IMG/VR virus record: IMGVR_UViG_3300033991_000114
Span: 1-24,984 of that record
Strand: one strand, 5' to 3'
Source of the DNA: a virus
DNA length: 24,984 nt
The notes under the pieces were generated by a model that saw only the letters and a program-made list of their open reading frames with translations, made no database searches and was not told where the DNA came from. The position numbers were made by a program, and so were the translations under genes. Shown here in pieces: positions 1 through 24,843 of the stretch. Every line of letters begins with the position of its first letter. The stretch's first letter is position 1.

Positions 1-665
1 TACCTGAATTATTATACCATACTTCTTTAAGACAAAGAGAATTATTTATAAATGAATATTTAAAAGGAGATGGTCATATTAGAAATAATGAAACAGTTAT
101 TTATTTGGGTTCTACTAATAATTTATTACAAGGATTTATTAAATTATTATTATTGTCAGGGAAGAAATTTAAACTAAGTAAACAAATTTCTGGTTTTAAA
201 AGTATAACGCACAGATTAAATATATTAAAACAAGATATACAATCATTTACATTTAAAAAAGAACAATTGTATGTAGGTAAAATTTGGTGTCCAACTACGG
301 AAAACAAAACTTGGATAGCGGTTAGAAACGGAATTCCCTTTATAACTGGCAATAGTTATTGGGGCGACTACGAAGCAGTAGTAAGAAGTGATTTTATTAT
401 TGCCTATTTACCCAAAGATACAAAAACTATAGGAACTATTATTGAAATAGAAATTTGTTATTTATTTGGAATTCCTGTTTTTTTGATTCTCCCAGATTGT
501 AGCAAAACAGAAGCTAATAGTACTTTGATAGATACTGTTATGAAATCTGAAGGCGAGATATTTTATAATATAGGAGAATGTTGTAATTTCATAAAAGAAA
601 AATATAAATTAAAAGAGCCCAAAGAAGAACCAAAATTAGAAGAAAAGAAAGAGGAGAAGAAATAA
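1..665 (+). CDS. Nucleoside 2-deoxyribosyltransferase-like protein interrupted by an intein (5' end missing)
   Basis: The frame is open from base 3, so the gene starts left of the window. Codons up to 353 read as the C-terminal part of an intein (separate entry). From Ser at 354 the mature protein continues with a WGDYEAVVRSDF stretch, a hydrophobic strand ending in LP, then GTIIEIE and a second strand (GIPVFLIL). This D...sD...GT..E..GiPV layout is that of the nucleoside 2-deoxyribosyltransferase-like superfamily, in which the Glu after GT is catalytic. Known enzymes exchange bases between deoxynucleosides, and related folds include other nucleotide-binding enzymes. The last 20 or so residues are a Lys/Glu-rich tail. 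The stop overlaps the next ATG (TAATG). The exact enzyme activity is uncertain, but nucleotide salvage would suit the neighbouring dNTP-hydrolase-like gene. Confidence 0.7.
   Translation, partial: PELLYHTSLRQRELFINEYLKGDGHIRNNETVIYLGSTNNLLQGFIKLLLLSGKKFKLSKQISGFKSITHRLNILKQDIQSFTFKKEQLYVGKIWCPTTENKTWIAVRNGIPFITGNSYWGDYEAVVRSDFIIAYLPKDTKTIGTIIEIEICYLFGIPVFLILPDCSKTEANSTLIDTVMKSEGEIFYNIGECCNFIKEKYKLKEPKEEPKLEEKKEEKK
3..353 (+). mobile_element. Intein, C-terminal part with LAGLIDADG-type endonuclease half
   Basis: About 117 codons before the junction have intein features. YLKGDGHI near the left edge matches the second LAGLIDADG (DOD) motif, followed by a YLGSTNNLLQGF helix and strand pattern typical of these domains. 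Near the end lies W-C-P-T-T, then block F/G residues ending in GIPFITGN, followed directly by Ser. Protein splicing would use Asn at 351-353 as the last intein residue and Ser at 354-356 as the +1 nucleophile. The penultimate residue is Gly rather than the usual His, a variation I believe occurs in other inteins. The N-terminal splice junction and first DOD motif are outside the window, so activity cannot be judged. Confidence 0.8.
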
Positions 666-3952: not shown

Positions 3953-4064
3953 AAAAGTAACAGGTAAAAGTTCTATTAAAGGATTAGAAGAAAGTATTTA
4001 TTATCATATTTATATAGGAAAAGACGGAAAAAAATACTGTATAGATAAGGACACAATAGGATGA
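3927..4064 (+). CDS. Small 45-residue basic protein
   Basis: ATGATG at 3927 follows a strong SD box (GGAGGAG at 3918-3924). The stop TGA overlaps the ATG of the next HNH gene. The product has a basic start (MMKKLKVIKKVTGKSSIKG) and a strand-like end (YYHIYIGKDGKKYCI). The strong ribosome site and the exact fit between neighbours support a real gene. Function unknown. Confidence 0.6.
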   Translation: MMKKLKVIKKVTGKSSIKGLEESIYYHIYIGKDGKKYCIDKDTIG

Positions 4065-4678
4065 AAAAGTGTACTAAATGTAATAAAGAAAAATCATTAA
4101 ATCAATTTCATATTTCAAAAGGTTTTGCAGATAAACATAATAATTGGTGTAAAAATTGTATGAGTGATTATCATAAAAGATATAGACTTAATCCAGAAGT
4201 TAAAGAAAAAGAATTAGTAAATGGAAGAAAATATTTCCTATTGAATAGAAAAAAATGCTTGTTAAAAAGTTTGAAATGGAAAAGAAAAAATAAAGATAAA
4301 ATGAGAGAATATAGAAGAAAATGGTGTAGTTTAAAACAAAAAACAGATATTGATTTTAAAATGCTTCACAATTTAAGAAGTCGGATATTACAAGCATTAA
4401 AGAAGGGCTGGAAATCTGGATTTGCTATTGAATTACTTGGCTGCTCTATTGAGCAATTAAAACAACATTTAGAATCTCAATTCACTAAAGGAATGAATTG
4501 GAAAAATTATGGTACTGGTTGGAATGGTAATGGTATGAAACAATGGCATATTGACCATATCAAACCTTGTGCTTCTTTCGACCTTAGCAAATCCGAAGAG
4601 CAACGCAAATGTTTTAATTATAAAAATCTTCAGCCCTTATGGGCGGAAGATAATTTAAATAAAGGAGCTAAAAAATGA
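4061..4678 (+). CDS. HNH-type homing endonuclease, paralog 1 of 3
   Basis: The 205-residue protein has an N-terminal four-Cys finger (CTKC, then CKNC), a basic helical middle, and a C-terminal block LLGCSIEQLKQHLESQF, GMNWKNYG, WHIDHIKPCASFDL, CFNYKNLQPLWAEDNL. The last part is an HNH-like site, with His residues in WHIDHI and Asn in NLQPLW. The same block occurs at 5642 and 11757 in this window. Enzymes of this kind are common free-standing phage nucleases that spread by cutting alleles lacking them. It is wedged between small unknown genes, overlapping both by 4 bases, so it was inserted without breaking the transcription unit. Confidence 0.85.
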   Translation: MKKCTKCNKEKSLNQFHISKGFADKHNNWCKNCMSDYHKRYRLNPEVKEKELVNGRKYFLLNRKKCLLKSLKWKRKNKDKMREYRRKWCSLKQKTDIDFKMLHNLRSRILQALKKGWKSGFAIELLGCSIEQLKQHLESQFTKGMNWKNYGTGWNGNGMKQWHIDHIKPCASFDLSKSEEQRKCFNYKNLQPLWAEDNLNKGAKK

Positions 4679-5078: not shown

Positions 5079-5642
5079 ATGGCTACACAAACACTCACAT
5101 CTAAGTTAGTAAAGAAAGCAGGGAATGGTAAGGGATTTGTTTTGGAAGGGCAAGAAGGTTGGTTTAATGCGAATGATAAGGTTGAACCTTTTCTTGCAAA
5201 AATTGAAGTAGGGAAGGTAGTAGAAGTATCTTATTTCAAAAAAGGTGTAAAAAGAGAAGTAACATTAATTAAAGAAGTTTCTGGAGAAGCAACCAAGACA
5301 GAAAAAGAAACTGAAGCCCCTAAAGAAGAAGGAAAGTATACTAATTGTGCAGTCTGCGGTAAAGAATTAAAAGGAAAAGGAGTTAATTATCCTAATTGTT
5401 GGGATTGCAAAGATAAATCTCCTAAAGAAGAAAAGAAAACAGAAACCGAACCAAGAAAAGAAAGAACATATACAGGAAGTAATTATGGTTCTGCTGAAGA
5501 TGTTGCTGGAAAAGAAGTTGGATGTGCTGCAAATTGTGCATCTTCTATTTTAGCAGGAAGGCAAGAAGACCCAGATACTTTATTAGAAATGTTTAGAATT
5601 CTTTTTAATGGAGTATTGGAGCATATTAGAGCAAATAAATAA
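5079..5642 (+). CDS. Putative nucleic-acid-binding protein: OB-fold-like domain plus zinc ribbon
   Basis: The 187-residue protein, preceded by an AAAGGAGG box, has three parts. Residues 1-67 look like a small five-strand OB-type barrel (GNGKGFVLEGQEGWFNAN, VGKVVEVSYFKKG). A Lys/Glu-rich linker follows. A four-Cys ribbon (CAVCGKEL..., CWDC) lies at about residues 90-110. After a second charged linker comes a helical C-terminus (CAANCASSILAG, LLEMFRILFNGVLEHI). The position just upstream of the primase-helicase and the domain mix suggest a single-strand DNA-binding or replication accessory protein, but I cannot name a confirmed family. No other SSB candidate is seen in the window. Confidence 0.55.
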   Translation: MATQTLTSKLVKKAGNGKGFVLEGQEGWFNANDKVEPFLAKIEVGKVVEVSYFKKGVKREVTLIKEVSGEATKTEKETEAPKEEGKYTNCAVCGKELKGKGVNYPNCWDCKDKSPKEEKKTETEPRKERTYTGSNYGSAEDVAGKEVGCAANCASSILAGRQEDPDTLLEMFRILFNGVLEHIRANK

Positions 5643-6331
5643 TGATAATAAGATTTTGCATTGTTTGTAAAAGAAAATTTCAAACCAATAGCCATAATAA
5701 ATGGCATTGTTCTAAAAAATGTAAAAAACAATCAATTATTAAACAGAAGCAAAAATATTATATGATTCATAAAAAAGAAATAAGAAAAAAGCAAAAAATA
5801 TATTATAATAATCACAAAGTGAATATTATTAAAAGAGTTAAACAATATTATTTCATTAATAAAGAAAAAATATTAAAATATCTAAAAAAATATCACCATA
5901 TTTATTATATAAAAAACAGATATAAAATTTTAAAAAGATTAAAACAAAATTCTATAATTTATCGTAAAAAAAATAAAAATAAAATCAATGAATATATGAG
6001 AACTAAAAGAAGAAAAGATATTAATTTTAATTTAGCAAAATGTTTAAGAAATAGAATTTGGGATGCTTTAAAAAATAATAGAAAATCTAAGCATACTTTC
6101 GAATTACTCGGTTGTTCTATTGATTTTTTAAAGAAACATTTAAAATCTCAATTTAAATCAGGCATGTCTTGGGATAGTTATGGTAGAGAAGGTTGGGTTA
6201 TAGACCACATAAGACCTTGTGCGAGCTTTGATTTAAGTAAACCAGAAGAACAAGTCAAGTGTTTTAACTATACAAATTTACAACCTCTATGGGCAAAAGA
6301 GAATTTAGAAAAAAAGGATAAAAATGTTTGA
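5642..6331 (+). CDS. HNH-type homing endonuclease, paralog 2 of 3, with basic helical repeats
   Basis: At 229 residues this is the longest of the three paralogs. It opens with a four-Cys finger (CIVC, then CSKKC), continues with about five Lys/Tyr-rich repeats of roughly 16-19 residues (such as YYFINKEKILKYLKK) that probably form DNA-binding helices, and ends with the shared block LLGCSIDFLKKHLKSQF, GMSWDSYG, WVIDHIRPCASFDL, CFNYTNLQPLWA. The first His of the WHIDHI motif is Val here (WVIDH), so one active-site position may be altered. It lies between the OB-fold candidate and the primase-helicase, overlapping both, with no obvious SD box of its own; translation probably depends on coupling. 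Confidence 0.82.
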   Translation: MIIRFCIVCKRKFQTNSHNKWHCSKKCKKQSIIKQKQKYYMIHKKEIRKKQKIYYNNHKVNIIKRVKQYYFINKEKILKYLKKYHHIYYIKNRYKILKRLKQNSIIYRKKNKNKINEYMRTKRRKDINFNLAKCLRNRIWDALKNNRKSKHTFELLGCSIDFLKKHLKSQFKSGMSWDSYGREGWVIDHIRPCASFDLSKPEEQVKCFNYTNLQPLWAKENLEKKDKNV

Positions 6332-9260: not shown

Positions 9261-9961
9261 TGGAAAAATCAGAATTATATTGTAGTTGCGAGATTTGTAG
9301 AGGTGGATTAATTCAACATCCAATTGGAGATTTAAGTTTTACACAAAATTTTCCCGAATTTAAAGAATTCAAAAAAATTCCCAGACTTTCAAGAGAAATA
9401 ATAATTACTGAAAAAATCGATGGAACTAATGGAGTTATTTTTATTGATGAAAATAATAACATTTTTGCTGGCTCTCGCAATAGATGGCTCTGGGGTTCTA
9501 TTCAAGATGAAATTCATAATGATAATATGGGCTTTGCTGCTTGGGTAAAAGCCAATAAAGAAGAATTATTAAAATTAGGTAAAGGTTATCATTATGGAGA
9601 ATGGTGGGGAAAAGGAATACAAAGAGGTTATGGATTAAATGAAAAGAGATTTTCTTTATTTAATGTAGGTAGATGGTGCATGTGGAATGAAGAACCAAAA
9701 TTAATAAGTATAAATCCAAAAACAAAAGAAGAAAAATATCAAGAAAGAGCACCAAAATGTTGCCATATAGTTCCTATTCTTTATGAAGGAATATTTAGTG
9801 AAGAACAAATAATTTTAGCATTAGCCAATCTTTCTATAGGGGGAAGCATAGTTACTCTTGATTTTATGAATCCAGAAGGAATAGTAATTTATCATAAATC
9901 TGGAAATTATTATTTTAAAAAGACAATAGAAAATGATGATAAAGCTAAGGGAGAAATTTAG
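9260..9961 (+). CDS. RNA ligase, nucleotidyltransferase superfamily
   Basis: The 233-residue protein has the ligase motifs in order: I, TEKIDGTNG (Lys52, the residue that would carry AMP); Ia, AGSRNRWLWG; III, HYGEWWGKGIQRGY followed by FSLFNV; IV, PEGIVIY; V, FKKT near the end. This pattern fits the PF09414 RNA ligase group. Such enzymes seal RNA ends and in phages counter host tRNA-cleaving defences. The N-terminus has an extra CSCEIC segment of unknown role. The size lacks room for a large C-terminal domain. The cREC protein at 11399 may work in the same repair pathway. Its stop overlaps the GTG of the next gene. Confidence 0.82.
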   Translation: MEKSELYCSCEICRGGLIQHPIGDLSFTQNFPEFKEFKKIPRLSREIIITEKIDGTNGVIFIDENNNIFAGSRNRWLWGSIQDEIHNDNMGFAAWVKANKEELLKLGKGYHYGEWWGKGIQRGYGLNEKRFSLFNVGRWCMWNEEPKLISINPKTKEEKYQERAPKCCHIVPILYEGIFSEEQIILALANLSIGGSIVTLDFMNPEGIVIYHKSGNYYFKKTIENDDKAKGEI

Positions 9962-10215
9962 TGAAGATAATCGCTAAAAATTTTCAATTATTTAAGTCCG
10001 CAGAATTTACTTTAGGCAAACTTAATGCTATTACAGGAACAAATTTAGACAATCTTAAAAATTCCAGTAATGGCTGCGGAAAATCTACTTTATGTAAAAA
10101 TATTATAACTTTTGTTCTTTATGGCGATATTCCTGGCTTATCACAAGATAAAATAATAAGAGATGATGAAAAAGAAATGTTAGAAATAGGCAAATTATTA
10201 TATAAAAAGGAGTAA
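9961..10215 (+). CDS. Orphan N-terminal ATPase lobe of an SbcC/gp46-like protein
   Basis: An 84-residue protein starting with GTG in a TAGTG overlap. It aligns with the first ~80 residues of SbcC at 21132: KNFQLFKSAEF versus INFQLFKEAEI, then ITGTN versus ITGIN, Walker A NGCGKST versus NGAGKTS, FVLYGDIPGLSQDKIIRDDEKE versus FVLFGEVTNLTLKDLIRIEEKE. It then stops; there is no coiled coil, zinc hook, signature or Walker B. By itself it cannot be a complete ABC ATPase. It may be a relic of an ancestral sbcC here, or a small protein that binds or interferes with SbcC heads. Its last codons form the SD box of the recombinase gene. Confidence 0.75.
   Translation: MKIIAKNFQLFKSAEFTLGKLNAITGTNLDNLKNSSNGCGKSTLCKNIITFVLYGDIPGLSQDKIIRDDEKEMLEIGKLLYKKE
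9979..9995 (+). repeat. 17-bp exact repeat shared with the SbcC gene
   Basis: AATTTTCAATTATTTAA at 9979-9995 is identical to 21159-21175. Both copies encode the NFQLF segment at the start of the two SbcC-like proteins, so this is best read as a trace of gene duplication or of codon constraint rather than an attachment site. Confidence 0.7.
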
Positions 10216-11756: not shown

Positions 11757-12326
11757 ATGAAAAAATGTAAAATTTGTAATCGTAATTTTATTCCAAATAT
11801 AAATCAAAAATATTGTTCTGATTTGTGTAAAACACAAGCAAAAAGAAAATATCAAAAACAATACCGTAAATTACATAGAAGAAAAATTATTAAAATGCAA
11901 AAAGAATATTACTATTCAAATAGAAAAAAGTTATTAAAAAAGAAAAAGATTTATCGTCAAACTCATATAAAACAGATACTTATTACTAACGAAAAATATA
12001 GATTAGATAAATCTAAAACAGATATAAATTTTAAATTAAAAAGATATTTAAGAGCAAGGATTTGGTTTGCATTAAAGGGTATCGCTAAATCAGCAAAAAC
12101 TATGAAATTGATAAGTTGTTCTATTGAATTTTTAAAGAAACATCTCGAAAAACAGTTTAAAAAAGGTATGAACTGGAAAAATTACGGTAAATGGCATATT
12201 GACCATATTAAACCATGCTGTCAATTTGATTTATCTAAATTAAATGAACAGAAGAAATGCTTTAATTATAAAAATTTACAGCCTTTATGGGCTATTGATA
12301 ATTTAGAAAAAAATAAATATGCTTAA
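11757..12326 (+). CDS. HNH-type homing endonuclease, paralog 3 of 3
   Basis: The 189-residue protein begins with a Cys finger (CKICNRNF, YCSDLC), has a very basic middle of Lys/Arg/Tyr helices, and ends with the shared block SCSIEFLKKHLEKQF, GMNWKNYG, WHIDHIKPCCQFDL, CFNYKNLQPLWA. The WHIDHI site is intact. Part of the linker before NYG/WHIDH is shorter than in paralog 1. It is inserted directly before the DNA polymerase gene and overlaps it by 8 bases, the position preferred by homing nucleases that target conserved replication genes. Confidence 0.84.
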   Translation: MKKCKICNRNFIPNINQKYCSDLCKTQAKRKYQKQYRKLHRRKIIKMQKEYYYSNRKKLLKKKKIYRQTHIKQILITNEKYRLDKSKTDINFKLKRYLRARIWFALKGIAKSAKTMKLISCSIEFLKKHLEKQFKKGMNWKNYGKWHIDHIKPCCQFDLSKLNEQKKCFNYKNLQPLWAIDNLEKNKYA

Positions 12327-14751
12327 CTTTCCAATCCAAAACATAGCAAACATTGGTCGTGAGATAATTTTATTTAATCGCCAAGCCGATGGTAAATTAT
12401 CGATGTTTAGGGATAAGAATTTTTTTCCTTATTTTTTTCAAGAATCTTCTACAGGAATTTTTAGAACAATTACTGGAAAAAAAGTGAATAAAGTATTTTG
12501 CAAATTGCCTTCTGAAGTTGCTCGCAAGAGAGATGAAAATTCTTATGAGGCAGATATTTTGTATCCAAAACGCTATTTAATTGATAAGGTAGGAGAAATT
12601 ATCAAATCTCCTATTAAATACATTTTTATTGATATTGAAATCCAAACAAAAGAAGGATTACCTAATTATCTCTATCCTGAACAGCCAATAACTTGTATTA
12701 GTATTTATAATTCTTTATCTAAAGAAATTAAAACTTTTTGGATTGAAAATTATTATACCGAAAAAACAGATAGCTACGATTTAACTTTAGAAGGACAAGA
12801 AAGTTCATTATTAACAAATTTTGTTAAATACATAAAAGATGAACAACCAGATATTTTATTAGGTTGGAATTTTGTTTTATTTGATTATCCTTATTTATGT
12901 GCGAGAATTAAAAAACTTTGGAATTTAGATTTGGCTGAATTAATTTCTCCCATAAATAAACAACGGTATGGACTGAAAGAAATGGACATTTCTTATCCCG
13001 CAGGAATTAGTATTTTAGATTACATGGATTTATTTAAAAAAGTTTATAAAAGTGGTGAGATGAGTTATGCTTTGGAGCAAGTAAGTAATAAGTATGTTAA
13101 TTTTCCTTTAAATAAAAAAGTAGATTTTGGAATTATTTCAGTAGAAATAAAAGAAAAGAACATTCAAGACATCGATAGAATGGTTAGATTAGAGGAAAAA
13201 TTAAAATTAATTCCTTATTTTGATGAAATTCGTAGGATGGGAAAATGTTTATGGGAGGATTTGACTTGGCATAGTAAAGTGCTTGATGTTATGCTTTTAT
13301 CCGAAGCCAAACAAAAAGGAATTATTCTTCCTTCAAAAAAATACGATGAATTTAATACAGACGAAAAAGAATTTGAAGGGGCATACCGCAGAGCAGATTT
13401 AGGTAGATTTGAAAATCTTTGGAAACTGGATTTATCATCAGCCTATCCAATGGCAATTATAGAATTTTGTTTAGATATTTCTAATCTTACCGAAAATAAA
13501 AATGAACAAAAAATAGATATTACTGATAGAGAAACGGAAGAAATAAAGTATTCTATTTATGTTAAACAAAATCAAAATGCTTTATTGCCTACAATAGCCC
13601 GTAAATTAATTGCTAAAAAAGATACTATTAAAAAACAACTAAAAATATTAGACCCAGAAAGCGAAGAAGGTAAAGATTTACAAATAAAATACGACGCAAT
13701 TAAAGCCCTTACGAATAGTCTTTTTGGCGTTTGTGCTTTAAAGGTTTTTCGTCTTTATAATGTAGACATTGCTTCTGCGATTACATCTATTGTTAGAGAT
13801 TTACTTCATTATGTAGAAGATAAATTAGAAGAACAAAACATAAAAGTAACTTATTTGGATACTGATTCTGCTTTTGTAATGGCTAAAGAAAATCCTGTAG
13901 ATTTATTGAATAATTTAACTCAACAATGGATTAAAGAAAAATATAACAGAGAAAAAACCGACATAGAATTTGATTATGAAGGTATCTTTGAGAAAGTATT
14001 GGTTGTAGCATTGTGTCATTATATTGGATATTTAAGAAAGAAAAATAATAAAATCAAAAAAGAAATAAAAGGTGTTGAAGTAAAAAGAAAAGATAGTTCC
14101 ATTTTTATTAAAAAATTTCAAGAAGAATTAATAGAAAAAATTCTTAACAACGAATCCCAAGAAGATGTAATAAAATTTATTAATTTAGAAAAAGAAAGAT
14201 TTAAAACTCTGCCTTTAATTGAAATAGCCTTTCCTTGTAGAGCCAAAACATCAGAAAAAAGTCCTACAATATTTATGAGAGCTTTGCAGTATAGCCAAGA
14301 AATAAATCCTAACTTTAAAAAATACGATGGAGAATTATTTTATTATCTCTATGTTAATTCTTTTGGTCAGGCAGAAAGACACGCCAAACAAATGCGTAAA
14401 AGCAAAAAAACAGGAGAAAAATATTTATTGGAATCTCATACTACAGTAGATAAAAATGTTTTGGCTTTTGATGGAGATGATATTTCTCATATTTTAAAAA
14501 TTGGCGTGAATTATGATGAGATGATTAGACGCAATATTCTGGATAAGGCTGAGAAAATCTTTGACGCAATGAAATGGGATAAAACAAAAATAGGAATAAC
14601 AATTAAAGAAAAAAGACCAAATAAAACTAAAGCAGAAATAGTTAAAGAACAAGAAACAATAATTAAATCTCAACCAACATTTACAGAAGAAGATTTTTTA
14701 GTAGAAGATAAAGAACCTAAAAAAGAAATCAAACCTTATTATAGTGAGTGA
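12319..14751 (+). CDS. Family B DNA polymerase with 3'-5' exonuclease
   Basis: The 810-residue protein has complete family B motifs. Exonuclease: FIDIEIQT (Asp105, Glu107), GWNFVLFD (Asp189), and the SYALEQVS region following a Y..D segment. Polymerase: motif A KLDLSSAYP (Asp371), motif B KALTNSLFG, motif C YLDTDS (Asp514, Asp516). Both activities should therefore work. Motif A has SSAYP where many members have SLYP. A charged tail (about residues 740-810) rich in Lys and Glu may bind a clamp or partner. It is the likely replicative polymerase, working with the primase-helicase at 6324 and the exonuclease at 3007. No intein is seen in it. Confidence 0.93.
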   Translation: MLNFPIQNIANIGREIILFNRQADGKLSMFRDKNFFPYFFQESSTGIFRTITGKKVNKVFCKLPSEVARKRDENSYEADILYPKRYLIDKVGEIIKSPIKYIFIDIEIQTKEGLPNYLYPEQPITCISIYNSLSKEIKTFWIENYYTEKTDSYDLTLEGQESSLLTNFVKYIKDEQPDILLGWNFVLFDYPYLCARIKKLWNLDLAELISPINKQRYGLKEMDISYPAGISILDYMDLFKKVYKSGEMSYALEQVSNKYVNFPLNKKVDFGIISVEIKEKNIQDIDRMVRLEEKLKLIPYFDEIRRMGKCLWEDLTWHSKVLDVMLLSEAKQKGIILPSKKYDEFNTDEKEFEGAYRRADLGRFENLWKLDLSSAYPMAIIEFCLDISNLTENKNEQKIDITDRETEEIKYSIYVKQNQNALLPTIARKLIAKKDTIKKQLKILDPESEEGKDLQIKYDAIKALTNSLFGVCALKVFRLYNVDIASAITSIVRDLLHYVEDKLEEQNIKVTYLDTDSAFVMAKENPVDLLNNLTQQWIKEKYNREKTDIEFDYEGIFEKVLVVALCHYIGYLRKKNNKIKKEIKGVEVKRKDSSIFIKKFQEELIEKILNNESQEDVIKFINLEKERFKTLPLIEIAFPCRAKTSEKSPTIFMRALQYSQEINPNFKKYDGELFYYLYVNSFGQAERHAKQMRKSKKTGEKYLLESHTTVDKNVLAFDGDDISHILKIGVNYDEMIRRNILDKAEKIFDAMKWDKTKIGITIKEKRPNKTKAEIVKEQETIIKSQPTFTEEDFLVEDKEPKKEIKPYYSE

Positions 14752-17680: not shown

Positions 17681-18321
17681 AAAATATTTTATTATTTGGT
17701 GACCTCCATTTAACTAAACAAGATATTCCAGAGTGTATTTCAATTCTTGAAGAAATAGGAATGTTAGCTAATCAACATAATGTAGATACTTTGATAGATT
17801 TGGGGGACACTTTTGACAATTTAAAACCAAGTAGTTTAGAATTAGATAATTTTGCTACTTTTATAAGAAGATTAAATAAAAAAATAATTATTATCGCAGC
17901 CGAAAGCCACGAAAGCGAAACTCCAGAAAATTCTATTGTTAATCATTTTGGAATTTTATCTGATACCATAACTGTGGTAAAAGAATACCAAGATGAAAAT
18001 AAATTGTATTGCGGACATTTTATTGTTTCTGAATCACAATTAAATAAATTTGGTGCTACTATTTCAAAAAATCAGCTAAAGAAATACAGGCATGTGATTT
18101 TAGGTCATGGACATTCTTTCGAATTAATAAAACCTAACATTTGTCAACTTGGTAGTTCGAGGTGGATTGATTTTTCTGAGGCTCAAGATAAAAATAAGAT
18201 AATATTACTTATAGAAAATTATGATAGTGATAATCCTAAATGTTCTTTTATAGCACTAAAGAGTCCTTATAAAATGATTGATATTATATTAGAAGGAAAA
18301 AACAATGAAAAGAATTTGTAA
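17677..18321 (+). CDS. sbcD: SbcD/Mre11-like (gp47-type) metallophosphoesterase
   Basis: The 214-residue protein has the phosphoesterase motifs: FGDLHL (Asp9, His11), DLGDTFDN (Asp44), AAESHESE in place of the usual GNHD/E, GHFIVSE, and LGHGHS (His144, His146). The usual Asn-His is seen here as Ser-His, a small change to note. The protein is shorter than bacterial SbcD (about 400 residues), lacking most of a capping domain. With SbcC (21132) it would form the nuclease-ATPase complex that resects DNA ends for recombination. In this genome the pair is split by seven or eight genes. ATGA overlap links it to MT-A70. Confidence 0.82.
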   Translation: MKNILLFGDLHLTKQDIPECISILEEIGMLANQHNVDTLIDLGDTFDNLKPSSLELDNFATFIRRLNKKIIIIAAESHESETPENSIVNHFGILSDTITVVKEYQDENKLYCGHFIVSESQLNKFGATISKNQLKKYRHVILGHGHSFELIKPNICQLGSSRWIDFSEAQDKNKIILLIENYDSDNPKCSFIALKSPYKMIDIILEGKNNEKNL

Positions 18322-18838
18322 ATATTGTAAAAAAGAATTCGAAGCAAAAACAAGAGGGAAAAAATATTGTTCTAATTATTGCAATTATAAAGATACATAT
18401 AAACCTATTCATAAACAAAAAAGTAGTAATATATGTATTATTTGTCAAAAAGTTTTTTATACCAAAAATAAAAATACGAAATATTGTTCAAAAAAATGTA
18501 AACAAGAAAATAATAATTATATGAGTATTGTTGGATTTGAAAGTAAAACTTCATTGGGAGCATATTCAGAATTATTAATATCTTGCGATTTGATGAATAA
18601 AGGATATGATGTTTTTAGGTCTTTATCTCCTTCTGCAAAAGTAGATTTAATTATTCGTAAAAATAAGAAAATACATTCTATAGAAGTAAGAACTGGAAGA
18701 TATACTACAACGGGTAGGATAACTTATTCAATGCAAAATATTAATGCCAATATAATGGCTGTTTGTATTTTTCCTACTAAAGAAATTAAATATTATCAAA
18801 AGGTTGAGCAAAAATGGAATTTAATTAATATAACTTAA
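18305..18838 (+). CDS. Zinc-finger PD-(D/E)XK homing-type nuclease
   Basis: The 177-residue protein has two Cys fingers (CKYC...CSNYC and CIIC...CSKKC) in the first 65 residues. Then comes a nuclease-like domain: GAYSELLISCDLMNKGYDVF, KVD(114)LII, HSIE(127)VR(129)TG, and a C-terminal strand-helix part. The layout E...GY.V...DLI...IxV(K/R)TG resembles group I intron-encoded and other PD-(D/E)XK nucleases. The usual catalytic Lys is Arg here (EVR). It starts 17 bases inside the SbcD gene with an AAGGA box. A homing function between recombination genes is likely; activity is uncertain because of the Arg. Confidence 0.7.
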   Translation: MKRICKYCKKEFEAKTRGKKYCSNYCNYKDTYKPIHKQKSSNICIICQKVFYTKNKNTKYCSKKCKQENNNYMSIVGFESKTSLGAYSELLISCDLMNKGYDVFRSLSPSAKVDLIIRKNKKIHSIEVRTGRYTTTGRITYSMQNINANIMAVCIFPTKEIKYYQKVEQKWNLINIT

Positions 18839-20890: not shown

Positions 20891-21135
20891 AATCATTTAA
20901 ATGGGTAGACCACATATATTCTAAAATGCGATATAGATACTTCGATATTTATTTTTATCAATATCTATTTCGCAAAGCAGATAACCCAGGATGGTGTTCG
21001 GATAATAAATTTAAAGATTTCTGGAATAGATTGCAATGTAGATGGCGTAATCATCCTTGTGGTTATATTTTTTATAATCCAGGTGCATACGAACCAGATG
21101 TTGGATGTATTGATTGCGGAGATGAAATAGGATGA
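20887..21135 (+). CDS. Small protein with Cys-rich C-terminal domain
   Basis: An 82-residue protein. The C-terminal part CRWRNHPCGYIFYNPGAYEPDVGC..CGDEIG follows a pattern I recall from other phage proteins (W-NHP-G-x-x-YNPGG-EPD-C-x-x-C), probably a zinc-binding unit. The N-terminal half is aromatic and basic (YRYFDIYFYQYLF). ATGA overlaps at both ends tie it to SbcC. Function unknown. Confidence 0.6.
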   Translation: MKSFKWVDHIYSKMRYRYFDIYFYQYLFRKADNPGWCSDNKFKDFWNRLQCRWRNHPCGYIFYNPGAYEPDVGCIDCGDEIG

Positions 21136-23204
21136 TAATACAATCTCTTAAACTCATTAATTTTCAATTATTTAAAGAAGCCGAGATTAATTTCTCAAAA
21201 ACCAACCTCATAACTGGAATTAATTTTGATAGTGAGGAATTGGATTCTTCTTTTTCTGGTAATGGAGCTGGAAAAACATCTATCATAAATGGATTATTAT
21301 TTGTTTTATTTGGGGAAGTAACTAATTTAACTTTAAAAGATTTAATTAGAATTGAAGAAAAAGAATGTTCAGTTATTTGTGAAATAACCAACAATAACGA
21401 ACATTACAGAATAATAAGAAAAATTCCTTCCAATTTAGAAATTTATAGTGATAAGGGAGAACATAAATTTTCTACTCAAACTATTGCCCAAAAATTTATC
21501 AACGAATTAATTGGCGAAGACCTAAATCATTTCAGGATGTATAGAACCATAGACCAAACTAAAGGAATAAATTTGTTAGATTTAGGAATTGTATCTCTTA
21601 GAAAAAATTTAATGGACATCGTAAATAATCAATTTATAGAAATAAGAAATAATTTATTAGCCAAAAAATTAGAGAGAGAAAGATTTTCTGTAACTAAGAA
21701 ACTTTATCATTTTTATATATCTACTAAAAGAGAAGAAATCTTAAATAATGGACTATTAAAATTAAATAGCGAAGAATCTAATATTTTAAAAGATAAAAGA
21801 GAGCAAGAAAAAGCAATTAATGATTTGTCTTTAAAAATAAAAAATAACGAAACTCAAACAATAAATCTTACCAAAATGAATCAAGATTATGTAAAAAAAT
21901 CTATTGACATTGAGAAAAAAATAAATAATTATCAAATAGAAATTAAGGAATTACAAAATACGGAAACAAAACCAATTGAAAAAATAGATTACGATTTGCA
22001 GATTACTAAAATAGAAAAAGAAATATCTGAGTTAGATAAAAAATTACAAAATAAAGAAAATGAAGAATCTACCAAATCCACAATAGAAAAAATTATATTT
22101 GCCATTCATGATTTGGAAACAGACATTAACGATATAACTAAAGATAATGATAAATTAATAAAAGAAATAGAGGGGCTAAACCAAGTACAAATAGGAACTA
22201 AATGTGATAGATGCGGTTCGTTAGTATCAAAAGAATATAAAGAAGCCTATGAAAATGATAAAGCAAATAAATTACAAAGCAATAAAATTTCGATTAATAA
22301 CTTACAAGAAAAAATAAATACAGAAAAGGAATTACTAATCTCTACCGAAAAAGAGTTAGATAAAATAAAAAAAGAGAGAATTAAATTAGAATTCGAATTG
22401 GGGGATTTAAGGAAAACACTTAAATTATTAAATACACAAAAAGCAAAATATAACGAAGAACTGATGATGACGAGCAAAATAGAATCTGGAAAACAAAAAT
22501 ATGAAGAATTAATTAAATTAAGCAAAGAGCAAATCATTGACTACGAAAAACAAACAAAAGATAATAATAAAATAATAGAACAACTAACATTAGAAATAGA
22601 GCAGTCAAAATTCAAATTAAAAGAAGAAGAAAGTTGCCTAAATTACTACAATTCTTTATATGAAGAAATACAAAATAATGTAAGAAAAACTAAAGAATAC
22701 CTAATGAAACTCAATGAGGCTAAAAAATTCTCTTCTTATAAATACACAAAGTCCGATATTCAATTGTATGCGGATGCTATAAAAACATTAGATTCTTTTA
22801 GTGCTTATTATGTAATGGAATGGTTAAATAATCTTTCTTTAATAATAAATAATTTACTTAAACCAATTAACATTAGTGTGGAGTTTTCAATAGAAAAAGA
22901 TTTTATAAAAGTAAACAATGCAGGACAAGAATTAAAATACGAACAATTGTCAAGCGGTCAGAAGACCTTCTTAAATACAATCTTTAAGGTGGGTATTTTA
23001 ATGAATGAAGGAATTCACGATGGGCTTTTGGTCATAGATGAAGGAATAAACACCTGCGACCAAATTAGTTTTAATAAATTATTGGAAATAATTAATAATT
23101 TAAATTTTCAATCAATCATCATTTATCAAAATTGTTCCAAAGAAATAAAAGAAATAAATTATATTAATACAGAAAGAAAAAATGGCGAAAGTAAAATTAA
23201 ATAA
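21132..23204 (+). CDS. sbcC: SbcC/Rad50-like (gp46-type) ATPase
   Basis: The 690-residue protein has the parts of a Rad50-type ATPase: LINFQLFKEAEI, Walker A GNGAGKTS (43-50, Lys48), a Glu/Lys/Leu/Asn-rich coiled coil from about residue 180 to 560, a zinc hook CDRCG in its middle (Cys358, Cys361), signature LSSGQKT (606-612) and Walker B LLVIDEG (Asp636, Glu637). Two of these proteins join at the hook and work with SbcD (17677) to process DNA ends. Length is like T4 gp46 (about 560) plus extra coiled coil. The orphan lobe at 9961 is its nearest relative in the window. Confidence 0.92.
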   Translation: MIIQSLKLINFQLFKEAEINFSKTNLITGINFDSEELDSSFSGNGAGKTSIINGLLFVLFGEVTNLTLKDLIRIEEKECSVICEITNNNEHYRIIRKIPSNLEIYSDKGEHKFSTQTIAQKFINELIGEDLNHFRMYRTIDQTKGINLLDLGIVSLRKNLMDIVNNQFIEIRNNLLAKKLERERFSVTKKLYHFYISTKREEILNNGLLKLNSEESNILKDKREQEKAINDLSLKIKNNETQTINLTKMNQDYVKKSIDIEKKINNYQIEIKELQNTETKPIEKIDYDLQITKIEKEISELDKKLQNKENEESTKSTIEKIIFAIHDLETDINDITKDNDKLIKEIEGLNQVQIGTKCDRCGSLVSKEYKEAYENDKANKLQSNKISINNLQEKINTEKELLISTEKELDKIKKERIKLEFELGDLRKTLKLLNTQKAKYNEELMMTSKIESGKQKYEELIKLSKEQIIDYEKQTKDNNKIIEQLTLEIEQSKFKLKEEESCLNYYNSLYEEIQNNVRKTKEYLMKLNEAKKFSSYKYTKSDIQLYADAIKTLDSFSAYYVMEWLNNLSLIINNLLKPINISVEFSIEKDFIKVNNAGQELKYEQLSSGQKTFLNTIFKVGILMNEGIHDGLLVIDEGINTCDQISFNKLLEIINNLNFQSIIIYQNCSKEIKEINYINTERKNGESKIK

Positions 23205-23460: not shown

Positions 23461-23594
23461 AATACATTCTTATAATTTATGTAGTTTATAAAGTTCTTTA
23501 TCTTTTAGAATTGTTAGTAAATATTATTAGTATAAATACTCAAATTTTGCAAAATTTATTGGATTTATTTTCTAAATCTAAAATATTCAGATGA
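23442..23594 (+). CDS. Small membrane peptide, 50 residues
   Basis: ATG at 23442 opens MFKKILKYILIIYVVYKVLY and continues LLELLVNIISI with a polar-amphipathic end. One hydrophobic helix with a basic N-terminus makes a membrane peptide likely. It overlaps its neighbours by 19 bases upstream and in the ATGA manner downstream. No family known. Confidence 0.55.
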   Translation: MFKKILKYILIIYVVYKVLYLLELLVNIISINTQILQNLLDLFSKSKIFR

Positions 23595-24073
23595 ATAAAT
23601 TAATTTCTAAAACCTGTATTATTTGTAAAACAAGATTTAATAATTACTCCAAAACTCAAAAATGTTGTTCTATGATTTGCAGAGATATTCGCAGAAGTTA
23701 TTTAGATTATCAAAAAACTCAAAAAATATTAAATAAATTGTCTAAAGATTTTCTAATCTGGTTTGCTGGTTTTTGGGAAGGAGAAGGACATTTAGGATGC
23801 TCTATAAAAAGATTTAGAAACAAAAATTATAAAGCATTTAGATTTCAGTTAACACAAAAAGATAAAGCATTTTTGAACAATCTAAAGAAAATTTTTAAAC
23901 AAGGATGCGTTTATGGGATTTATTATCAAATAACAGGAACGGGGAAAATTTTAGCATTTTTAAATATTCTAATTCTTTATATTAAACTTAAACATAGAAA
24001 AAAACAAATTAAAAATTTTTTAAATTGGTTACATTCTAAGCAATTAATAAAATATCTAAAAAAACATAAATAA
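23591..24073 (+). CDS. LAGLIDADG homing endonuclease with N-terminal zinc finger
   Basis: The 160-residue protein starts with a Cys finger (CIICKTRF, CCSMIC), then FLIWFAGFWEGEGHLGC, which is the LAGLIDADG helix with its acidic end (residues about 57-68), followed by a strand, FQLTQKDKAFLNNLKKIF, then YYQITGTGKILAFLNIL and a basic helix. A single LAGLIDADG motif means the enzyme would act as a dimer. It is a free-standing nuclease, not inside an intron or intein as far as visible. It follows the membrane peptide with ATGA overlap. Confidence 0.85.
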   Translation: MNKLISKTCIICKTRFNNYSKTQKCCSMICRDIRRSYLDYQKTQKILNKLSKDFLIWFAGFWEGEGHLGCSIKRFRNKNYKAFRFQLTQKDKAFLNNLKKIFKQGCVYGIYYQITGTGKILAFLNILILYIKLKHRKKQIKNFLNWLHSKQLIKYLKKHK

Positions 24074-24084
24074 AGGTGGTTTAG

Positions 24085-24843
24085 ATGATTAATATAAAAA
24101 ATAATCCAAAATGTAGGATAGGCGAATGTAAGAAATGCAAATGCCCTATAGATATTAGAGCAAAAAATAAACTATGTATCGATTGTTGGAGAAAATTTGC
24201 AATAGGAAAAAAAGCCTCTTGGTATGGAAGAAAGCATACTAAAAAAACAAAAATAAAAATGAGCAAAGCACAAAAAAGAAATAAACATGCTTTTAAAAAT
24301 GGAAAATCCAAATGTATTGGTTGCAATAAAGAAATATGTTATGGAAGTAAAAGATGTGTTAGATGTTTTCATAAAATATTATCAAAAAAATTTAAAGAAA
24401 AAAAACCAAGTAAAAAATGTATAGAAGCATCTATCAAAGCAAATTCTCATCCCATGTCTAAAGAAATAAAAAACAAAATAAAAGAATCAATGAAGGGCAA
24501 AAATAAAGGGAAACGAAGTGCTTTATTTGGTAAGCCCGCTCCATTTATTAAAAAAATAAAATATAAAGGCATAAAAATGAGGTCTTCTTGGGAAGTAGCT
24601 TATGCCAAGTATTTAGACCGACAAGGTATTAAATGGTTATACGAATCTAAAACATTTGATTTAGGTGATACTACTTATACTCCTGACTTTTATCTTCCAG
24701 AAAGCGATACTTATGTGGAGATTAAAGGCAGATGGTTTGGAGATTCCAAAAAGAAATTTGATTTGTTTAGAAAAAAATATTATAGCATGAATATTATTTT
24801 ATTAATGAAAAAAGAATTATTAAAATTAAAAATATTAAAATGA
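24085..24843 (+). CDS. NUMOD3-type zinc-finger PD-(D/E)XK homing endonuclease
   Basis: The 252-residue protein, preceded by AAAGGTGG, has two or three Cys fingers in the first 100 residues (CKKCKCPI, CIDCW, CIGC, CVRCF). Between and after them lie NUMOD3-like helices (GRKHTKKTKIKMSKAQK; NKIKESMKGKN). The C-terminal domain reads MRSSWEVAYAKYLDRQGI, TYTPD(201)FYLP, YVE(212)IK(214)G: a PD-(D/E)XK active site. The W-KFAIGKKAS segment is shared with the HNH protein at 1551. This is a typical mobile nuclease with NUMOD DNA-binding repeats. Its stop overlaps the next ATG. Confidence 0.85.
   Translation: MINIKNNPKCRIGECKKCKCPIDIRAKNKLCIDCWRKFAIGKKASWYGRKHTKKTKIKMSKAQKRNKHAFKNGKSKCIGCNKEICYGSKRCVRCFHKILSKKFKEKKPSKKCIEASIKANSHPMSKEIKNKIKESMKGKNKGKRSALFGKPAPFIKKIKYKGIKMRSSWEVAYAKYLDRQGIKWLYESKTFDLGDTTYTPDFYLPESDTYVEIKGRWFGDSKKKFDLFRKKYYSMNIILLMKKELLKLKILK

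Follow-up and report, generated by a model that had tools for sequence, protein, structure and literature searches.

At the left edge of the window, which is the whole 24,984-base stretch of DNA analyzed here and a complete virus record, a full-length homing intein very probably interrupts a phage gene encoding a protein similar to nucleoside 2-deoxyribosyltransferases (NDTs), and the contig would begin within the intein (probability of about 0.93). The frame at this cut edge (positions 3–665, + strand) is open from the contig edge to the stop codon at 663–665, and comparative analysis confirmed its reading as the C-terminal half of an intein fused in frame to the C-terminal part of an NDT-like protein. 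The preliminary description had proposed the second half of a LAGLIDADG intein joined to a deoxyribosyltransferase-like domain, and both parts of this proposal were borne out, the former by homology to a complete intein in the contig L018 (IMGVR_UViG_3300031885_000005, an uncultivated phage) and the latter by the NDT fold of the host protein. Because of this homology, the probability that a 117-codon frame is open by chance at the base composition of the window (~6e-6) is irrelevant to the identification.

Intein part of the frame and the complete intein of L018

The intein part comprises 117 residues (3–353, + strand) and represents the C-terminal portion of a LAGLIDADG intein, as judged from its homology to the complete L018 intein at the same site and to phage inteins. 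The sequence search matched it with phage inteins in portal, TerL, and polymerase genes and also with L002, a glycosyltransferase intein. The second LAGLIDADG motif, YLKGDGHI (residues 19–26; 57–80, + strand), was aligned with EYLKGDGRE of L018 and with other inteins, and its acidic residue is intact. The alignment of the window with eight complete inteins placed the splicing blocks F and G, GKIWCPTTENKTWIAVRNG ... GIPFITGN, at 279–353 (+ strand), with GKIWCPTTENKTW as block F and FITGN as block G, and assigned Cys to F:4, Thr to G:5, Gly to the penultimate position, and Asn to the terminus. The C-extein begins with Ser at +1 (AGT, 354–356, + strand). The window has both blocks, the terminal Asn, and, at +1, Ser, one of the three residues (Cys, Ser, and Thr) that qualify there (GKIWCPTT...ITGN/S, where the slash marks the junction). 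Block A, block B, Cys1, the first LAGLIDADG motif, and the N-extein lie upstream of the left edge of the record, and for this reason we infer an intact N-half from L018.

In L018, which was retrieved with the N-terminal part of the intein-free relative L003 as the query, a single frame of 539 residues comprises the N-extein (...EGNYLTDF), a 325-residue intein, and the C-extein. The L018 intein possesses Cys1, block A (CVDETTQ...), block B (FSPNH), and both LAGLIDADG motifs (WILSEGS and YLKGDGR) with both acidic residues, the second of which is also present in the window. The N-terminal block with Cys1 and the N-extein, which the preliminary description had proposed to look for, were thus found in this same-site relative. 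Its second splice junction is GIPFITGN/CFWGDYEA, that is, FITGN/CFWGDYEATVRSD. The alignment of the window with L018 crosses the junction and extends over 201 residues without a single gap (59% identity, E 1e-79); identical residues number 63/117 for the intein and 54/83 for the extein. The two share the host protein, the insertion site, the intein lineage, the C-terminal motif, and the neighboring gene, whereas L018 is complete, has Cys instead of Ser at +1, and is clearly diverged (54% identity across the intein overlap). The substitutions between them fall mostly at third codon positions, with dN < dS in both the intein and the extein (dS being near saturation), suggesting that both are under constraint.

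The inteins of the Gordonia and Mycobacterium phages Belphegor, Woes, GordTnk2, and Pinkcreek (in portal, terminase, and other proteins), together with L002, have a block F with WC-T and a TGN C-terminus. They resemble the L018 intein in the LAGLIDADG endonuclease, the length of ~320–350 residues, and Cys1, but they reside in other host proteins, and their B:12 residue is Trp rather than the Met of L018. An AlphaFold prediction for the intein, built from three sequences, was of low quality across the splicing domain (pLDDT 51.5) and still matched inteins and I-DmoI.

Other genes of the window include many free-standing endonuclease-like genes, at 665–1162, 1668–2225, 18305–18838, 23591–24073, and 24085–24843, of the endonuclease VII, HNH, PD-(D/E)XK (weak), LAGLIDADG_1 (weak), and NUMOD3 plus phage endonuclease I types. 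Three paralogs (4061–4678, 5642–6331, and 11757–12326) share the C-terminal motif W.IDHI.PC..FDLS..EQ.KCFNY.NLQPLWA and appear HNH-like by eye, with no Pfam endonuclease match. Over 70 residues, an 84-residue stub at 9961–10215 shares 44% identity with the N-terminus of an SMC/gp46-like ATPase (21132–23204).

Host protein and insertion site

The C-extein (354–662, + strand; SYWGDYEAVVRSDFIIAYLPKDTKTIGTIIEIE...) constitutes the last 103 residues of the NDT-like protein, as supported by identity to L003, the family alignment, and the fold. In Pfam, LAGLIDADG_3 matched the intein part with E 0.0028, under its gathering score, and PF05014 matched the C-terminal domain alone weakly (E 0.047). For the two NDT-type profiles that had been proposed earlier, the best scores in the family stayed below the gathering cut-offs: 24.9 for PF15891 (L003; cut-off 30) and 18.6 for PF05014 (L005; cut-off 28.8). 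The protein is therefore named NDT-like and is placed in neither family, and the relationship to NDTs was established by the fold of the host model instead. For the AlphaFold model of L003, which was calculated from 15 family members (pLDDT 86.8), the VIA Z score was 14.5 to 7m5h (3.0 A, 135 residues), 13.5 to YtoQ, and 12.1 to L. leichmannii NDT, and Foldseek returned NDT-fold structures (best E 3.5e-4). These results indicate that the host protein, as modeled, has the NDT fold.

The Asp of WGDYE (366–368, + strand) is the invariant D121 in the alignment of the 15 family members, and the invariant Glu (444–446, + strand; E147 in L003) is located 26 residues past it. The same spacing separates D62 and E88 of Chroococcidiopsis NDT, residues taken from mutant names in structure-entry titles; by spacing, the Asp corresponds to Asp62 of this enzyme and to Asp72 of the Lactobacillus (L. 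leichmannii) enzyme, of which E98 is presumably the counterpart of E147. By this spacing, D121 matches the active-site Asp and E147 the catalytic Glu of NDTs. The NDT-fold proteins 7m5h, L. leichmannii NDT, Chroococcidiopsis NDT, DNPH1, and MilB share with the phage family the fold, the Asp-26-Glu spacing, and the N-terminal YxAG motif, whereas the phage family contains a helical insertion that ends approximately at the intein site, and the identity is ~9–21%. The phage protein may catalyze deoxyribosyl transfer; the fold also serves the hydrolases DNPH1 and MilB.

The search with the C-extein identified the intein-free relatives L003 (73–75% identity) and L004 (71%), and the N-terminal part of L003 as the query retrieved four more contigs, L017 and the near-identical L015/L019, which are intein-free, and the occupied L018. 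Eleven family members are intein-free at the junction: L003, L004, L015, L017, and seven more distant ones. Empty alleles read YLTDF/KYWGD, YLTDF/QFWGD, YLTDF/QYWGD, and YLTDF/CYWGD at the junction, and the +1 residues of the distant members L025, L027, L028, L029, L030, L032, and L033 are R, Q, S, Q, A, K, and K, respectively. The +1 residue is thus variable among the empty alleles, and a nucleophile (Ser or Cys) is present in both occupied alleles. The comparison of the 11 intein-free members with L018 and the window fixes the junction and indicates that the insertion site is common to both occupied genes; the in-frame insertion is missing from the homologs, and its removal leaves the host protein intact. 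The position originally assigned to the insertion, just ahead of WGDYEAVV and one motif before GT..E, was upheld by this comparison with inteinless homologs, which had been suggested for confirming the junction. The site separates residue 116 from residue 117 and precedes D121 by four to five residues; it is at the end of the helical insertion, which is missing in the distant members L005, L034, and L036.

The DNA flanking the site is nearly identical between the occupied L018 and the empty L017, L004, and L015. The gene that follows the NDT-like gene (1149–1550 in the window) and DNA polymerase B (PolB) were each found in 8/8 phage contigs tested, with best matches of 38–78% and 40–70% identity, respectively, indicating that the NDT-like genes of the window and the related phages are orthologs. 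In the window, the endonuclease VII gene (665–1162) separates the NDT-like gene from the following gene.

Splicing chemistry and alternative interpretations

We propose that the intein would fold after translation, excise itself, and join the exteins via Ser+1 and Asn, which would restore an uninterrupted NDT-like enzyme, presumably an active one. In co-infecting related phages whose gene lacks the intein, the LAGLIDADG domain would cleave the site, and the intein would spread in this way. Splicing would likely follow class 1 chemistry, with a Cys1 thioester, transfer to Ser+1, and Asn cyclization without a penultimate His; the presence of Cys1 and Met at B:12 in L018 makes class 1 likelier than class 3. 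The penultimate Gly, recorded in the preliminary description as standing in place of His, is common in phage inteins and no anomaly (PMC5050341). It is shared by all of the relatives in the alignment of eight complete inteins and the window, it is known in mycobacteriophage inteins, and in one of these the replacement of Gly by His slowed splicing (PMC5050341).

A class 3 pathway, in which the block F Cys (WCPTT) would serve as the first nucleophile, is considered unlikely. The window does have two of the three signature residues, Cys F:4 and Thr G:5, as well as Ser at +1, which is usual in class 3 (PMC5222942), and Trp occupies B:12 in several relatives of the intein. However, the intein found at this site in L018 begins with Cys1 and carries Met instead of Trp at B:12 (SPNHNM), so that its triad is incomplete, and its +1 residue is Cys. 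B:12 is Val in the B23 intein, and among inteins generally only one residue is more frequent at F:4 than Cys (PMC4031507). The triad has been stated to be exclusive to class 3 inteins (PMC7664689). Of 73 viral inteins in which the WCPTT motif occurs, ~20 combine the full triad (Trp B:12, Cys F:4, and Thr G:5) with Cys1, including L049, L054, L058, L060, L063, L065, L066, L070, and others, as well as L008, L010, and L011, so that class 1 and class 3 cannot be separated there by sequence alone.

A degenerate intein that has lost splicing or cutting is quite improbable. Only one half can be read in the window, which would leave room for such a loss, but this half has retained blocks F and G, the terminal Asn followed by Ser+1, and the acidic residue of the second LAGLIDADG motif, the excess of dS over dN (with dS close to saturation) argues against decay, and a non-splicing insert would ruin the host protein. 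It is very doubtful that the intein acts as a conditional switch on phage nucleotide scavenging, for example one governed by redox state or infection stage via Cys F:4, rather than as a neutral selfish element; this idea builds on the position of the intein four residues from the putative active-site Asp of a nucleotide-metabolism enzyme. We regard as highly improbable a natural split intein, whose N- and C-halves would be encoded separately and spliced in trans: the window begins within the intein, and no N-half is visible there in cis, but the frame is unbroken up to the contig edge, and the same-site L018 intein is contiguous in one frame. A chimeric assembly of an intein fragment with an unrelated gene, which the position at a contig end might suggest, has a negligible likelihood, being refuted by the independent contig L018 with the same junction and the gap-free alignment across it.

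Origin and distribution of the intein

In a FastTree tree of twelve inteins, the intein of the window paired with that of L018 (support 0.999), and the polymerase inteins of the same phage group adjoined this pair with weaker support (0.58 and 0.87). The L018 phage itself carries a PolB intein, L116 (G001:C1:50000-54200), which is 29% identical to its NDT intein over 313 residues (E 1e-24). The PolB inteins occupy two sites, EDLTWH/SKVLD (L116) and a second one before SAYP of motif A (L117 and L118), and the PolB of the window (12319–14751) has no intein at either PolB site. L116, L117, and L118 resemble the NDT inteins as Cys1 LAGLIDADG inteins of related phages, whereas they differ in the host protein, DNA polymerase B, in their LSGN/ISGN ends, and in the insertion sites. 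Because related inteins are found in PolB of the same phage group and adjoin the pair in the tree, movement of the intein between polymerase and NDT genes inside the group is plausible.

The scan for the junction pattern retrieved L018 and three unrelated virion-like proteins, and a profile built from the intein C-halves of the window and L018 gave no match beyond L018. Among the 73 viral contigs with the WCPTTxNxTW block F motif, an NDT-like C-extein was found in L018 only, and a pattern search of bacterial genomes yielded no relative of the NDT family. The candidate relative L006 was rejected as a chance match. The remark in the preliminary description that the host protein was unfamiliar for inteins agrees with the literature searched, of incomplete coverage, in which no intein in a deoxyribosyltransferase was found. 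In PMC3888941 and PMC10343443, inteins are named in reference titles only, and PMC6669764 proposes a polymerase mini-intein and mentions a deoxyribosyltransferase separately. The element is thus an ordinary intein of a known type, and its host protein and insertion site are new, as far as searched.

The host gene of this intein is an accessory one of nucleotide metabolism, and among closely related phages it exists as both occupied and empty alleles. Together with the relatives in polymerase genes of the same phage group, these alleles provide a convenient system for studying intein jumps between genes.
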